DNA of 53,162 nucleotides from an uncultured Clostridia bacterium (GTDB lineage: Bacteria; Bacillota; Clostridia; TANB77; CAG-508). Location: NCBI GenBank assembly GCA_944388805.1, contig CALXKE010000012.1:1-53162 (forward strand), written 5' to 3'. Below, piece after piece: positions 26,917 through 38,163 of this stretch. Below the pieces are notes generated by a model, which saw nothing but the letters and a program-made list of their open reading frames with translations, made no database searches and was not told where the DNA came from. Numbering within the stretch: the stretch's first letter is position 1; each line of letters starts with the position of its first letter. A program made the translations under genes and the position numbers.

Positions 26917-28221
26917 GTGAACATTTTAGAAATTATAGAAAAAAAGAGAGATAAAAAAGAATTATCAAAGACAGAAATCGAGTACTTTATTGAAGGATAT
27001 ACACATGATAAAATAGTAGATTATCAAGCTGCTGCACTAATCATGGCAATGTATTTAAATGGAATGACAAAACAAGAAACAACAGATATGACAATAGCAA
27101 TGGCAAACTCAGGAGAACAATTAGATTTATCAAAATTAAATGAAATCATTGTTGATAAACACTCAACAGGAGGAGTAGGAGATAAAGTATCTTTAATCTT
27201 ATTACCGCTAGTTGCCTCTTTAGGTGTACCAGTTGCAAAAATGTCTGGAAGAGGATTGGGATTTACAGGAGGAACAGTTGATAAATTAGAATCTATACCA
27301 GGATATCAAACTGGTATTAATATCCACAAGTTTGTAGAAAATGTGGAAAAAATAGGAATCAGTATGATTTCTCAGACTTTAAATTTAGCGCCTGCAGATA
27401 AAAAGATATATAGTTTAAGAGATAGCATTTCCTGTGTAGAAAGTATTCCATTAATTGCTTCTAGTATTATGAGTAAAAAAATTGCAAGTGGAGCGCAAAA
27501 AATTGTCTTAGATGTTACTTGTGGTTCAGGAGCTTTTATGCAGTCAAAAGAAAAGGCAGAAGAATTAGCAGAGGAAATGATTGAAATTGGCAGATTAGCC
27601 AATAAGGAAACGGTATGTATACTTACCAATATGGATGAACCATTAGGATATGCTGTAGGAAACTCTTTAGAAGTCATAGAAGCCATTCAATTTTTAAAAG
27701 GGAACATGCCAGAAGATGTCAAAGAAGTGGTATTAGAGTTGGGAGCATATATGGTAAAACTTGCAGGAAAAGGAGAAAATATTGAAGAAAATAAAGCAAG
27801 ATTATTACAAAACATTGAAAATGGAAAAGGATATGAAAAATTTATACAATTAGTAGAAAATCAAGGAGGAGATGCCTCATATATAAAAGACGTTCATCAA
27901 TTTCCAAAAGCAAATTATATAGAAAATGTATATAGTGAAATAAATGGTTATATCCAAAGTATGAATGCAAAAGAAATTGGGAAAATTGTCTGTGATTTAG
28001 GAGCAGGCAGAATCCGAAAAGAAGATAATATTGATAATGCAGTTGGAATTATATTACATAAAAAAGTTTCAGATAAAGTGGAAAAAGAAGAGTTGCTAGT
28101 TACGATATATGCAAATTCAAAAGAAAAACTAGAAGAAGCGAAAAAGAAATTATTAGAAGTTATAAAAATAGAAGAACAAGAGATTAAAAAGCCAAAAATG
28201 ATATTAGAAATTATGAAATAA
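26917..28221 (+). CDS. pdp: Pyrimidine-nucleoside phosphorylase
   Basis: This enzyme splits uridine, thymidine or deoxyuridine with phosphate for nucleoside salvage. The 434-residue protein has the usual alpha domain, then VDKHSTGGVGDKVSLILLP (phosphate-binding and signature motif) and KMSGRGLGFTGGTVDKLE, and a C-terminal domain ending in the PYNP_C fold. GTG start at 26917 behind AAGGAG. Substrate breadth (Pdp versus thymidine phosphorylase DeoA) follows the Firmicutes norm but is not proven by sequence. Confidence 0.9.
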   Translation: MNILEIIEKKRDKKELSKTEIEYFIEGYTHDKIVDYQAAALIMAMYLNGMTKQETTDMTIAMANSGEQLDLSKLNEIIVDKHSTGGVGDKVSLILLPLVASLGVPVAKMSGRGLGFTGGTVDKLESIPGYQTGINIHKFVENVEKIGISMISQTLNLAPADKKIYSLRDSISCVESIPLIASSIMSKKIASGAQKIVLDVTCGSGAFMQSKEKAEELAEEMIEIGRLANKETVCILTNMDEPLGYAVGNSLEVIEAIQFLKGNMPEDVKEVVLELGAYMVKLAGKGENIEENKARLLQNIENGKGYEKFIQLVENQGGDASYIKDVHQFPKANYIENVYSEINGYIQSMNAKEIGKIVCDLGAGRIRKEDNIDNAVGIILHKKVSDKVEKEELLVTIYANSKEKLEEAKKKLLEVIKIEEQEIKKPKMILEIMK

Positions 28222-28361
28222 TAAGAGTATTTATATGCATTTCTAGAAAATTAGGCAGTATTAAAAAATAGAAGAATCCATTTATGATTGGATATATATA
28301 TGTTTGGTGATATAAATTTTAAAGAATGTAAAGATAAATGCTAGTTTTATAAAACCAGTAT

Positions 28362-28390
28362 TTGAAAAATTATGTAAATTGTGTTATAAT
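28362..28390 (+). promoter_or_regulatory. Strong promoter for the structured RNA
   Basis: TTGAAA (28362-28367), 17 bp and TATAAT (28385-28390) end just before the folded region starting at 28395. Between pdp and this promoter (28222-28361) only small AT-rich hairpins are seen. Confidence 0.8.
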
Positions 28391-28394
28391 TAAA

Positions 28395-28636
28395 GTTGGA
28401 ACTCGTCAACATTGATTCAGTAGAAAGGAGGTGCTCCCGATGGGAACACTTAAAGATGAGCCATCAACTCATCAACCAGAATCAATTATGACCATCCTGT
28501 CTCTTTATACAGATGGATGGTTTGTGGAGGACATCGAAGAAAGATTCGATGAAGTGAAAAAGTATGCTGTTAAGTAAATGGTAAACTTTTTCAGCTCCAA
28601 AAGTTTTCCCCCCACTTCGGTGGGGGATTTTTTTTG
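28395..28636 (+). ncRNA. Highly structured non-coding RNA candidate with its own promoter and terminator
   Basis: Nearly the whole 240 nt can pair. Stems: TTGGA 28396-28400/TCCAA 28596-28600 (closing); TTGATTC 28412-28418/GAATCAA 28479-28485, enclosing hairpins at 28431-28449 and 28455-28473; ACCATCC 28491-28497/GGATGGT 28515-28521 with TGT/ACA continuing inside; CATCGAA 28532-28538/TTCGATG 28545-28551; GAAAAAGT 28556-28563/ACTTTTTC 28585-28592. A CCCCCAC-TTCG-GTGGGGG terminator with eight T follows. GC is far above the surroundings, as expected for folded RNA in AT-rich genomes. Size and clostridial setting recall raiA-motif RNA, but I cannot confirm the class. A 45-codon ORF (28440-28577) overlaps it and could be an alternative reading. 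Confidence 0.72.
28605..28636 (+). terminator. UUCG-capped terminator of the structured RNA
   Basis: CCCCCAC (28609-28615), TTCG loop, GTGGGGG (28620-28626), then a T-run from 28628. It is the strongest intrinsic terminator in the window. Confidence 0.95.
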
Positions 28637-28745
28637 TTGTATAGGTAAAATCGCTTTTTTATTGAATAAAAAACATCATTATTCAGAAAAATTGCTATGT
28701 AATTTTTCGTGTCGACAAATAAAATAAAAATTTTATCTAAAACTC

Positions 28746-28774
28746 TACAAAAAATAAGAAAATAGTGATATAAT
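28746..28774 (+). promoter_or_regulatory. Probable promoter of the small membrane protein-cdaA operon
   Basis: TACAAA (28746-28751), 17 bp and TATAAT (28769-28774). The leader to 28901 is long (about 120 nt) without an obvious known element. Confidence 0.55.
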
Positions 28775-28900
28775 ATAAATGTTAGTATAAACTTTTTATA
28801 TAAAAATCATGTAAATACTTAGATATATAAAGAAAAATTTATATAGGGCGGTATATAAATAAAAATAACCTATATGATAAAAAGAAAGGAATGAGCAATT

Positions 28901-29050
28901 ATGAAAAAAGAAAAAAATCAACAAGAAAAAGTAAAGAAAACAAAACATTATGATAAAGGAAGAATTTTTGTAAAAGTCATGGCAGGTTTTTTAGCAATAT
29001 TAATGATATTAGCAACAGCTTCAACACTAATATATTCACTAATGATATAA
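28901..29050 (+). CDS. Small single-pass membrane protein upstream of cdaA
   Basis: ATG 28901 to TAA 29048 encodes 49 residues: a Lys-rich hydrophilic N-terminus (MKKEKNQQEKVKKTKHYDKG) and one transmembrane helix (about residues 27-48). The site AAGAAAGGAATGAGC is well placed. It lies 16 bp before cdaA and must share its transcript, so a regulatory or assembly role for the cyclase is a reasonable guess. I recognise no family. Confidence 0.75.
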   Translation: MKKEKNQQEKVKKTKHYDKGRIFVKVMAGFLAILMILATASTLIYSLMI

Positions 29051-29066: not shown

Positions 29067-30014
29067 ATGATAATTGATTTTGGAATGAATTGGGAAAATT
29101 TTTATACAGATAATATTGTAGGATATATAAAATCATTACAAGAAAATCCATTTGAATTGATTACATTAATTATTGATTTAGCAATCGTAATATTTTTAAT
29201 ATATTCCTTTTTAAAAGTTGTAAAAGGATCTAGAGCATGGCAGTTAATTAAAGGAATTGTCTTATTGATTATCATTACTTGGCTTAGTGGATTATTCAAC
29301 TTGCAAATTTTAAATTGGATTTTAACAGGTATCATGAACTTAGGAGTGATTGCTATTATTGTTATATTCCAGCCAGAATTAAGAAGAGGACTTGAACAAT
29401 TAGGAACCAACAAATTTACAAAGTTTTTTGGAATTGACAAGGACTTAGCAACCAAAACCAAAGAAGATATTTATAAAATTGTCATTGCAGCAGTAGAATT
29501 ATCAAAAAGTAAAACAGGTGCTTTAATCGTTATAGAAAGAGATATAAAAATACAAGATGTTGTAGCTAGTGGAATACCTATGAATGCAGATGTGTCTCCT
29601 CAATTATTAGTTAATATTTTTGAACCAAAAACACCATTACATGATGGAGCAGTTATTATTTCAGGAAATAAAATAGCAGCAGCAGCCTGTGTATTGCCAC
29701 TTGCAGATGATAATGATATAGCAAAAGAATTAGGAACAAGACATAGAGCAGCAATCGGAATATCAAAAGAATCTGATAGCATTGTAGTAGTTGTTTCAGA
29801 GGAAACAGGAAAAATTTCTATTGCAAAAGATGGAACTTTGATTGCAGACGTTAGTGAGGAAGCTTTGAAAAAGATATTAATTACGAATGTAGTAACAAAA
29901 AGATTTGCAGTAGAAAAAAGAGAAAGAAGAAATAAAATAAGAGAAATAAGGGAAAAATTACGTAAAGAAAAGCAAGAAGAGAAAGCCAAAGAAGAGGAAG
30001 AAAAGAAAGAATAA
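29067..30014 (+). CDS. cdaA: Diadenylate cyclase CdaA (c-di-AMP synthase)
   Basis: CdaA makes c-di-AMP from two ATP; the messenger controls potassium/osmolyte transport and wall homeostasis. The 315-residue protein has three helices (about residues 30-105) and a DisA_N/DAC domain with DGA at 193-195 and GTRHR at 223-227, both catalytic. The charged Lys/Glu tail is longer than usual. The usual partner CdaR (YbbR repeats) and glmM do not follow; truA does. ATG 29067 follows AAGAGG. Confidence 0.95.
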   Translation: MIIDFGMNWENFYTDNIVGYIKSLQENPFELITLIIDLAIVIFLIYSFLKVVKGSRAWQLIKGIVLLIIITWLSGLFNLQILNWILTGIMNLGVIAIIVIFQPELRRGLEQLGTNKFTKFFGIDKDLATKTKEDIYKIVIAAVELSKSKTGALIVIERDIKIQDVVASGIPMNADVSPQLLVNIFEPKTPLHDGAVIISGNKIAAAACVLPLADDNDIAKELGTRHRAAIGISKESDSIVVVVSEETGKISIAKDGTLIADVSEEALKKILITNVVTKRFAVEKRERRNKIREIREKLRKEKQEEKAKEEEEKKE

Positions 30015-31014: not shown

Positions 31015-31656
31015 ATGAATACAATTTTACTTATATTTTTTGCAATACCATTAGCTGTGATTATATTTTCCATAGCATTACAAAAAATCTTGAAATGTCC
31101 GGCATTAGTTGCAGGAATTATATTTGCAATAGGTGTTATTATCACATTTATTATAGGAAATCTAATTGTTTTAGCAGCTACTTTGGTTTATACATTAATT
31201 AGTTATATAACGGCATTAATTACTTGTTTGATAAAGAGATTTTGTAATAATGATGATGATAATTGCTGCAGAAGAAACTGTTGTTGGAATCATAATAACA
31301 ATAATGAAAACGATTTGTTGACCATAAGCAGTCGTTGCCAAAATAATGGAAATGGCGATTTATTAACAATTAATAGTAGTTGTGCAAATGGAAACACCAA
31401 TAATTTATTGACAATTAGTAGTAATAATAATGGAAGGGATTGCTGTTGCCATAATGATGATAATAATCATTGTGGATGTGAAAATAATAATGATTTAAAC
31501 ACAGTAAATACAATCAATGGTGTTATTAGAATTGTAGATAATAATGGAAATAATAATTGCAATAATGATGAAATATCGACTAGAATTAATGTAGTACCAA
31601 ATACTGCAAATAATGGTAGAACAGGATGCATTTGTGGAAGATATAGAAGAAGATAA
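31015..31656 (+). CDS. Membrane protein with an Asn/Cys-rich repetitive tail
   Basis: The 213-residue protein has three hydrophobic helices in residues 1-75, then an unusual tail rich in Asn, Cys, Asp and Gly. Within it a short motif, LLTISS or LLTINSS, occurs three times at about 20-residue spacing, and Cys-clusters (NCCRRNCC, CCCHNDD, HCGC) lie between. Cys/His clusters suggest metal binding or disulfide cross-linking. The ending is basic (CGRYRRR). I recognise no family. A spore-coat-like or metal-binding surface protein is possible. AAGGAG precedes ATG 31015. Confidence 0.75.
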   Translation: MNTILLIFFAIPLAVIIFSIALQKILKCPALVAGIIFAIGVIITFIIGNLIVLAATLVYTLISYITALITCLIKRFCNNDDDNCCRRNCCWNHNNNNENDLLTISSRCQNNGNGDLLTINSSCANGNTNNLLTISSNNNGRDCCCHNDDNNHCGCENNNDLNTVNTINGVIRIVDNNGNNNCNNDEISTRINVVPNTANNGRTGCICGRYRRR

Positions 31657-32694: not shown

Positions 32695-35025
32695 CTATTT
32701 TTTTTCATTTCTTTTGAAATTGATAACAACAGCATCATCATTATCAAACAAATATCTAGAATCTGTAGTATCTGTTTGTATTGGGTTGATTTCATCTCGT
32801 TCATCTTTAAAATCTAAATTTTTTAAATCAAATTTCTTTTTAGGTGAAGAATTATCATCTTCTGTAGCAGTTGTAACACTATCAGAGTATTTACCAAAGT
32901 CAAAAGTTTTGATTTTTTGTTTTTCTTTATATTTAGATTCTAGGTAATTAAATTTACCAGGACCAACCATTAAACGTCCACCAATATCTTTAACTTTATA
33001 GGCACATTTCTTATCTGTAAGCATTCCTTGTAATTTTCCAGGTGTAAAATAGTCAACATATGCCCATTTTGCATCACCTAATTTATTGGTATAAGACATT
33101 TTTTCTGTATCCAAATCTACTTTGTAGGTCCATTCTCTGTGTGAACCAAATTCTGAAACCCACCATTTTAATTCATCTATAACGGCATTACCAGTAAATA
33201 CTTTATTTGAACAGTTTGATAAGATGGTGTTTTTATAATTTTCTCTAGATCTAGGTGTTTCTAATTGTGCTAAGTTTTGAGCAGAGATAATGGTTCCAAC
33301 ACGATATTTTCTATACATTGTGAAGATAGCTTCTGTTGCTTTACAAATAAAGTCAGGAAATTCATCAACATATAGGAAATTAGGAACTCTTGAGTTTTCT
33401 CCACCAGGTCTTCTTAAAACAGCATTTTGCATTGATATTAAGAAGAATAATCCAAATGCTTGATGTGTTGATGAACCTAAATCACCACGTCTCGTGCATA
33501 CAAAAGTAATATCTCCATTTGCGAGTGCTTTATCAAAATCAATATTATTAAATCGATTACATAAGATAGATTTAACACCAGGTAATCTTAAAAGATTATC
33601 TAATTGTGTAACTGCTGCATAAATATCTTTTTCAGTTTGAGATCTTGCAGGTCCATCTTTATAGAAACATTTTTTAAAATATGAAAGTTGTATAGCATAT
33701 TTTTCTTTTAACTCTTCATCATGAGCTAAGATTTCACACATTTTTTCTATTAATTCAAAATTTGTGAACATTTTTAGCATATCTTCCATGTTAGGAAGAG
33801 CACCTTCGTTCATTCTAGGATACATTTCTTTTAATAAAATAGCCAAATTCTCAATTGCTTGAATAATAAAGTCTTCTCTATAGGCATCTTCAACTTCTTC
33901 ATGTGCATTGTTGTACATAGCTTTTAAAGCAGAAGATATAGTAACTGCTATCTTTGAAGGTTCATCATAAACAAAAGGATTTAATCCTATTGAGTTAGGA
34001 TTTGATGGATCAATCATATTGTATTTAAATCCATAATTATCGCAGACTTGTGTCATATGGTCAATTAGTTCATAATCTGGAGACATGATTTCTAAACCTA
34101 AATTTTTATATACATTTTCACCATTTAGTGTTCCTAAAATCATCTTTTTCATATAACCATTATAAACAGCTTCTTTTCCCTCAGTAGGAGCAAGCATTTC
34201 TAATTTAAAGTTTTCATTAAGATAATCATTATCATATGGTCTTTTCAAATGTGCGATACCTGTTTTCAAAGCAGTAAATCCCATTTCTTTAGAAACTTCT
34301 CTAAAGAAGTATTTTTTCTCAATATCTCTAGCAATCATTGGTTCAAAAACTAAAGAAGTTTTCCCTGTTCCAGATCCTCCACAGACAAATAAAGATAAAT
34401 ATCTTGAAACTTCTGGAATAATGATTGTTGTACCATAATCAGAGTCTGTACATAAAAAGACTTCACAGGTATAAACACCTCTATCTTTTTTAGGGTCTGA
34501 TAAATCAATTCCTTTATAATCCCAGATAGAACGGATTTGATCCAAGTTATCATTGATACCCATATATAACCATTTGAATACTGGAAATATAGTGACTAAT
34601 GGTAAATAAAGTGAGATACTAATAAAAGCAGGCTTTACAATATCAGAAAAATCTGTAATTAATTCTACATAATTAGGAACAGATAATAATAGCAACCAAG
34701 CTCCCATATTTAGCCATTGGGTAAACATAGAAATGGCAATGATATATAGTCCAATAACGTATACATAGAATATAGCTACTTTTTTCATGTTTGAAGTAGC
34801 AAATTCAGATTGTCCTGAAAACAAAAATGCAAAAATTGGACATGCCAAAGCTAATGTGTATTTTATAGGTCCCCAATAAGAATAGGATACACCTGTAAAT
34901 ATCATAAGAAGCATCTCAACAATTCTATCTACTGCTAAATATACTGTTATCAATGTTAAAATATATGTTGCAAATGTGTTTCTACTAACATTTAATTTCT
35001 TTAAAAATTTGTCTATTAGCTTCAT
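32695..35025 (-). CDS. Orphan VirD4/TraG-type coupling ATPase
   Basis: This 776-residue protein has about four to five transmembrane helices in residues 20-155, then a cytoplasmic motor with Walker A GGSGTGKTS (starting at 216) and Walker B FLYVDEFPDF, followed by TIISAQNLAQLE. This is the type IV coupling protein/TraG layout used to feed DNA or protein to a secretion channel. The all-alpha-like region between (about 370-520) is acidic. No relaxase, VirB4 or other conjugation gene is nearby; neighbours are core sporulation and metabolic genes, so it looks like a domesticated or stand-alone translocation ATPase. The Lys/Asp-rich C-terminal tail is probably disordered. Confidence 0.82.
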   Translation of the reverse strand: MKLIDKFLKKLNVSRNTFATYILTLITVYLAVDRIVEMLLMIFTGVSYSYWGPIKYTLALACPIFAFLFSGQSEFATSNMKKVAIFYVYVIGLYIIAISMFTQWLNMGAWLLLLSVPNYVELITDFSDIVKPAFISISLYLPLVTIFPVFKWLYMGINDNLDQIRSIWDYKGIDLSDPKKDRGVYTCEVFLCTDSDYGTTIIIPEVSRYLSLFVCGGSGTGKTSLVFEPMIARDIEKKYFFREVSKEMGFTALKTGIAHLKRPYDNDYLNENFKLEMLAPTEGKEAVYNGYMKKMILGTLNGENVYKNLGLEIMSPDYELIDHMTQVCDNYGFKYNMIDPSNPNSIGLNPFVYDEPSKIAVTISSALKAMYNNAHEEVEDAYREDFIIQAIENLAILLKEMYPRMNEGALPNMEDMLKMFTNFELIEKMCEILAHDEELKEKYAIQLSYFKKCFYKDGPARSQTEKDIYAAVTQLDNLLRLPGVKSILCNRFNNIDFDKALANGDITFVCTRRGDLGSSTHQAFGLFFLISMQNAVLRRPGGENSRVPNFLYVDEFPDFICKATEAIFTMYRKYRVGTIISAQNLAQLETPRSRENYKNTILSNCSNKVFTGNAVIDELKWWVSEFGSHREWTYKVDLDTEKMSYTNKLGDAKWAYVDYFTPGKLQGMLTDKKCAYKVKDIGGRLMVGPGKFNYLESKYKEKQKIKTFDFGKYSDSVTTATEDDNSSPKKKFDLKNLDFKDERDEINPIQTDTTDSRYLFDNDDAVVINFKRNEKK

Positions 35026-37821: not shown

Positions 37822-37881
37822 AATATAAATCCTCCTAAAATTTGTTTTTGGGAATTAAAGGTATGCAAATAAAACCTATAT

Positions 37882-38021
37882 GTATTGACCTTTGTTACAA
37901 CATTACTATTGCTCTTTTAATCAATACTCATGACCATAAGTGAAAGCCATCAGAGCACCCGCCGAATCTTTCGATAACTCTGAACCTCGTCAACACCCAA
38001 AAAAGAGTGTCCAGGCGCTAT
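37882..38021 (-). ncRNA. glmS self-cleaving ribozyme-riboswitch
   Basis: On the minus strand the leader of glmS reads AGCGCCTGG at the cleavage end (near 38019), then GTGTTGACGAGG, GTTATCGAAAGATTCGGCGG and GTGCTCTG, which are the conserved glmS ribozyme core segments in order. A distal stem GTATTGA/TCAATAC (37882-37888 region) with an ACAAAG segment fits P4. Glucosamine-6-phosphate is the cofactor for self-cleavage, which destabilises the mRNA. It starts about 60 bp before the glmS ATG. Confidence 0.95.
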
Positions 38022-38163
38022 ATATGAACGAAATATTGCCCTCCTTTCTAAACATTTTCTTGCATACTTTTAATTTACTGCTATTATATTATACTAAAAT
38101 GAAAAAATACGCAAGTCCTAGTAAAAAAATTTTATTTTTTAGATAGAAAAAATAATAAAAAGA

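Follow-up and report, generated by a model that had tools for sequence, protein, structure and literature searches.

The window, a 53,162-nt stretch of DNA from an uncultured Clostridia bacterium, contains an AT-rich gap between two genes which, judging from their sequences, we take to be deoA-like (ending at 28221) and cdaA (starting at 29067); the neighboring genes look chromosomal on reading. A clean transcription unit on the + strand lies inside this gap. It begins with a sigma-A type promoter, TTGAAA-17-TATAAT with a TG extension (28362 to 28390, 11 of 12 matches), in which the two boxes occupy 28362 to 28367 and 28385 to 28390 and are separated by a 17-nt spacer. Just 5′ of the -35 box is a near-perfect palindrome, CTAGTTTTATAAAACCAG (28341 to 28358), which is perfect in two related genomes, G131 and G034. 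The mRNA 5′ leader (28395 to 28423), placed by an inferred transcription start and an alignment of five A-type cassettes, is followed by a Shine-Dalgarno sequence, AAAGGAGG (28424 to 28431), and by a predicted hairpin at the start codon, GUGCUCCC-GAU-GGGAACAC (28431 to 28449). The open reading frame (ORF), identified by homology and pN/pS, spans 28440 to 28577 (45 codons, MGTLKDEPSTHQPESIMTILSLYTDGWFVEDIEERFDEVKKYAVK, net charge -5) and carries a mid-coding hairpin, ACCAUCC/GGAUGGU (28490 to 28522). The unit ends at an intrinsic terminator (28609 to 28635) consisting of the UUCG-capped stem CCCCCAC-UUCG-GUGGGGG (28609 to 28626) and a U-run to 28635; in type B cassettes the terminator lacks the U-run. 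The GC content of the element is 40.9%, compared to 19.7% and 18.9% for its flanks and 27.5% for the window.

A consensus scan of positions 28200 to 28950 found two terminator-like sites against 0.1 expected, the second being the start-codon hairpin as seen on the minus strand. Promoter-like sites showed no enrichment in the same interval (three found, 5.2 expected from shuffles). Other ORFs in the vicinity were also recorded. A 49-aa ORF (28901 to 29050, + strand) directly precedes cdaA and has a hydrophobic C terminus by eye; a similar ORF is present in 77 of 80 distant loci, and no Pfam match was found for it up to E 0.01. An ORF at 31015 to 31656 (+ strand) is asparagine and cysteine rich, and a large ORF at 32695 to 35025 (- strand) resembles by eye a type IV coupling (VirD4/TraG-like) protein, which may be the marker of a nearby conjugative element.

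The cassette was found at the deoA-cdaA locus in 13 genomes, including that of the window. A DNA search of 94 genomes, the window's own among them, gave partial matches in G034 and G036, both at the corresponding position, and bases 3 to 57 of the query showed 93% identity in G034. A 33-base DNA match in G061 was rejected, as no such ORF was seen there on reading. The leader pattern was present in 3 of the 210 genomes of the genus, and protein searches over the same 210 genomes added G131 and G149; with the G036 protein as a query, the window and G131 were recovered at E values of 6.6e-5 and 2.6e-5, respectively. Eight more cassettes (G027, G047, G147, G242, G020, G007, G025, and G185) came from the regions upstream of cdaA, where 28 of the 30 best cdaA matches were read (all except L087 and L088). 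A hidden Markov model (HMM) built from these eight and run over the 210 genomes gave no further strong match, the next best being 6.6e-5. Weak HMM matches within the genus, in 25 of 30 genomes in the protein search and 14 of 22 with the eight-cassette HMM, plus G051, were not counted as members; those at L043, L098, L099, and L107 were inspected.

Loci without the cassette were also read. Six of 15 such loci (L062, L063, L068, L071, L072, and L082) retain a similar promoter by reading, and the presence of a promoter without the gene points to gene loss. Among 80 more distant loci that were fetched, no cassette was seen on reading in the 18 with long or unmeasured gaps, in 55 others the distance from deoA to the 49-aa ORF does not exceed 179 bases, and the remaining 7, whose gap is unmeasured, were not inspected. 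For the 100 genomes of the genus that are left, coverage came from the protein searches alone. Two further observations were made during this survey. First, small ORFs at L098 (1381 to 1587) and L099 (81 to 392), near a gene that we presume to be mutY-like, contain two copies of a similar "GYT..EI" unit and match the HMM weakly (7.2e-4 and 8.3e-4); they are possible distant kin of the small protein. Second, long inverted-repeat inserts, MITE-like by eye, lie upstream of cdaA in other species (L080, L083, L118, and L169).

Outside the genus, relatives were found at unrelated loci in three genomes of two other genera, namely, G333, G258, and G247, the last two belonging to the same genus. In 287 genomes of the order, a pooled HMM had 12 matches, namely, nine cassette carriers, G051, G333, and G258. 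Built without the latter two, it still scored G333 at 4.0e-10 and G258 at 2.0e-6; G051, at 8.5e-4 and in a long frame, was not counted as a member. When G333 and G258 were included in the HMM, where their own scores are by construction, a search of 233 genomes of the family added G247 at 4.5e-13. The G333 gene occupies another chromosomal site, between what are presumably RNase J-like and glutamyl-tRNA synthetase-like genes. The G247 gene lies within a prophage, where it is transcribed opposite to the adjacent holin and endolysin genes; beyond these come tail and head genes, whereas an RNase E/G-like gene flanks it on the other side. The neighbors in G258 are holin-like and lysozyme-like by reading. 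The protein family, from uncultured Clostridia and mostly unmatched in Pfam (11 of 12 proteins), occurs both at a chromosomal locus and beside phage lysis genes in a related genus.

Comparison of the cassettes showed that the ORF is kept in frame in all 12 other locus cassettes, at lengths of 35 to 45 codons across the 13 and with a Shine-Dalgarno-like GGAG in each. Of 31 within-type pairs (12 of the 13 cassettes, G185 being left out), 30 had a pN/pS ratio below 1 (range, 0.23 to 0.74). These pairs lack independence, and pS climbs to 0.6 to 0.9 in the wider ones. By type, the ratios were 0.23 to 0.53 in 21 of 21 type-B pairs and 0.26 to 0.74 in 9 of 10 type-A pairs. The exception was the closest pair, the window and G131, with six nonsynonymous changes and one synonymous change (ratio, 1.62). 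Conservation extends to the protein sequence, beyond a mere run of codons. On this comparative evidence, the 45-codon ORF at 28440 to 28577 is most likely a real gene.

All 16 proteins examined are acidic, with net charges of -1 to -8. An AlphaFold model of the window protein (input of six sequences; mean pLDDT, 78.9) has a disordered N terminus and three short helices, at residues 13 to 24, 29 to 34, and 36 to 43; Foldseek found no solved structure in the PDB resembling this model, the one match having an E value of 9. The window protein had no Pfam match up to E 10, and 11 of 12 proteins scanned fell under every Pfam cutoff. Only the G036 protein passed, by hmmscan, with 27.6 bits for HTH_68 (cutoff, 27) and 26.2 bits for DUF433 (cutoff, 23.6). 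In a six-frame scan of G036, HTH_68 reached 25.3 bits, under the cutoff of 27, and the Pfam HTH_68 model found a single genome, G036, among the 287 of the order. For five A-type members, the best E values in PHROGs and NCBIfam were 0.12 and 0.054, respectively.

Several other leads were followed and set aside. A PDB sequence search with the profile listed 31 sequences, with TALE repeat proteins at whole-sequence E values down to 3.9e-16; no single stretch of these passes by itself, and they were therefore read as summed repeats. The PDB matches of the G036 protein were designed repeats and a DUF433 entry (E 0.9). The 14 IMG/VR matches to the DNA pattern looked, on reading, like chance or unrelated sequences, and none of 13 candidates from an IMG/VR scan with the protein profile was confirmed. 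No relative emerged from 50,697 phage records when a single protein (G333) was used as the tblastn query, and the small-protein family was not described in any of the papers listed by a literature search. The best reading is that the small acidic protein would be a fast-evolving product of an mRNA selected for its structure.

The RNA from 28395 to 28640 has a predicted folding energy of -81.4 kcal/mol (z, -4.71), and none of 200 dinucleotide shuffles folded as well; the same was true of 28395 to 28600, which excludes the terminator (z, -4.97; 0 of 200). Nine helices make up the predicted fold, among them a 5′-terminal GUUGG/UCAAC, AUUGAUUC/GAAUCAAU enclosing two hairpins, and the terminator stem. 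The sequence-only reading had described a multistem RNA in a GC-raised island, with its own promoter just 5′ of the element and a UUCG-capped terminator, and each of these features was borne out here.

How much of this folding goes beyond the coding requirement was measured by synonymous resampling. With cassette codon usage, each of the 13 cassettes had a negative z (mean, -2.88; extremes, -0.86 and -5.67), and with host usage the mean was -6.7. Permutation of each cassette's own codons gave a mean z of -2.84, with G149 and G007 near zero. As a control, 29 pieces of neighboring genes gave -0.28 with host usage (standard deviation [SD], 1.39; 5 of 29 below -2) and -0.35 with own-codon permutation (SD, 1.21; 4 of 29 below -2). 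When relatives were pooled into seven clades, the mean z was -2.72, with a Welch P value of 0.005 against the control that is a guide only, because the two sides used different codon tables, whereas the permutation figures are like for like. These statistics show more folding in the coding sequences of this locus than amino acids and codon composition demand. Outside the genus, excess folding was absent in G258 (z, +1.99) and G247 (+0.32) and weak in G333 (-1.14; own-codon permutation, -2.03).

The region around the start codon outranked 37 of 38 control genes in stability in the window and in ten other cassettes; the figure was 32 of 38 for G036 and 12 of 38 for G149. Of the 13 locus cassettes, all but G149 have a predicted start-codon hairpin; outside the genus, one is predicted in G333 and G258 but not in G247, and at least four different arm sequences are used by reading. 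The hairpin was equaled by 1 to 5 of 400 shuffles in type B and G185, by 47 of 400 in G027, and by 16 to 91 of 400 in type A, the window itself having 28 of 400. Within one group of uncultured Clostridia, the message for the small protein appears to be under selection to form successive hairpins.

When the individual helices of the window were mapped onto the other rows (that of G025 being edited at its 3′ end), only the terminator stem was kept in 13 of 13 cassettes. The mid-coding hairpin has 12 of 12 pairs in G131, 9 of 12 in each of G036, G149, and G034 (the last showing four double changes), and 3 to 6 of 11 to 12 pairs in type B and G185. GUUGG/UCAAC is fully kept in G036 and G131, the start hairpin is in place in G034 and G131, and the other helices are fully held in G131 alone. 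Most helices shift register among cassettes. In an alignment of the seven type-B sequences, 93.4% of the cells pair, a value equaled by none of 500 shuffles. Compensatory changes in the same seven sequences were seen in 3 of 45 pairs, which 100 of 500 shuffles reached; the covariation score was reached by 37 of 500 shuffles, and the RNAalifold covariation term was +0.9. What all members share is the protein, whereas the folding belongs to the lineage that carries the gene at the deoA-cdaA site.

We consider it probable that the element is a monocistronic gene producing a small acidic protein from a hairpin-structured mRNA. In such a gene, the sigma-A type promoter would yield a leader of about 45 nt ending in a strong Shine-Dalgarno sequence with the start-codon hairpin directly behind it. 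This hairpin would set translation initiation, and the hairpins in the coding region may prolong the life of the mRNA or pace the ribosomes in an AT-rich cell. The weakest part of the proposal concerns function. We suggest tentatively that the small protein might bind a second protein and so serve as a minor accessory factor, moron-like and possibly of phage-accessory origin. The suggestion is made because the protein is acidic, fast evolving, repeatedly lost, and found beside prophage lysis genes in a related genus. A doubtful extension of the proposal is that the whole coding sequence is selected as a chain of hairpins, reinvented in new registers as the protein evolves, so that the two layers coevolve and folding as such, rather than any single structure, is what is selected. 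If true, the hairpins might, for example, protect a potent small protein or limit its dose, or the RNA might itself be a second product.

A related explanation is a dual-function transcript, in which the RNA itself acts as a base-pairing or protein-binding regulator, as in SR1, and the small protein is a second product. Such a transcript would fit with selection on coding-sequence folding over and above the protein, and with the five A-type sequences, in which, by reading, the promoter and leader diverge less than the coding region does. However, a regulator of this kind is unlikely given that the terminator stem alone among the window helices is kept in 13 of 13 cassettes, and two of the three homologues outside the genus lack excess folding.

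The original proposal of an independent noncoding structured RNA, either a raiA motif or a new class with an incidental ORF, survives in part. Its own transcription unit, as judged by sequence, and a selected structure both stand (z, -4.7 to -5.0, in a GC island), and the changes between the window and G131 are mostly nonsynonymous, as a noncoding RNA would allow. The noncoding half is not supported, as the ORF is kept under purifying selection: it is in frame in every cassette, homologues retain it with synonymous changes, which is the outcome that the sequence-only reading had itself named as a refutation, and homologous proteins occur in two other genera. Nor was the structured-RNA class upheld by covariation, since the compensatory changes, which the sequence-only reading had expected in the stems, are nearly absent from the type-B alignment and within the shuffle range. 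Rfam at gathering thresholds gave no match at the element or in 15 related loci, and the list of 17 Rfam matches with E values up to 10 does not include RF03072, the raiA motif. The gathering-threshold scan of the window does find glmS elsewhere in it, a ribozyme/riboswitch at 37872 to 38030 (- strand; 85.9 bits against a gathering threshold of 37). A scan of genomes for raiA was silent in all 30 relatives and also in 14 control genomes, so that its absence from the genomes is unproven. Taken as a whole, the noncoding reading is largely refuted and very improbable.

An attenuator or leader peptide for the cdaA operon would explain why a short ORF followed by a terminator lies about 0.4 kb upstream of cdaA, and why, in the window, the consensus scan found no promoter separating the terminator from the 49-aa ORF. 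It is nonetheless highly implausible, as cdaA is present in 206 of 210 genomes of the genus, mostly without the cassette, a promoter-like sequence precedes the 49-aa ORF and cdaA in several other species by reading, the homologues in other genera are at unrelated loci, and the protein sequence itself is conserved. A type I toxin with translation restrained by the structure of its mRNA would match the compact structured mRNA with its start codon within a hairpin but is scarcely credible, as 16 of 16 proteins are acidic, membrane-like character is lacking (hydrophobicity judged by eye), and the sole minus-strand promoter-like site in 28200 to 28950 (consensus scan only) is upstream of the gene and points away.

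The structured gene for a small acidic protein that we favor offers a compact natural case for studying joint selection of a protein code and an mRNA fold. Folding scores alone pointed to a noncoding RNA, whereas comparison reveals a small-protein gene that is also under RNA-structure selection, and this is a caution for noncoding-RNA discovery in AT-rich genomes.

Some likenesses to known systems are apparent. First, the raiA motif RNA, or ModT (RF03072), is of similar size (motif of ~215 nt) and is found in Bacillota. Its consensus is reported to comprise 8 helices together with 2 pseudoknots, and more than 2,500 species are reported to have it (PMC11706538). The element, in contrast, has no covariance match up to E 10, contains an ORF under purifying selection, and forms a local string of hairpins. 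Second, the core of the G036 protein is above both cutoffs for HTH_68 (PF22943) and DUF433 (PF04255) in hmmscan, though not for HTH_68 in the six-frame scan, and DUF433 is reportedly linked to antitoxins. However, only 1 of 12 proteins passes, the window protein has no match, and the members here are acidic and 35 to 45 aa long. DNA binding is at most a candidate activity of the small protein. Third, phage morons and small prophage proteins such as DicB (PMC6832061) resemble the element, which by sequence has its own promoter and terminator, is small and patchy, and has a relative in G247 beside lysis genes; unlike them, it occupies a fixed deoA-cdaA site in the window's genus. Finally, SR1/SR1P of Bacillus subtilis (PMC8501984) is likewise a short transcript that encodes a small protein.
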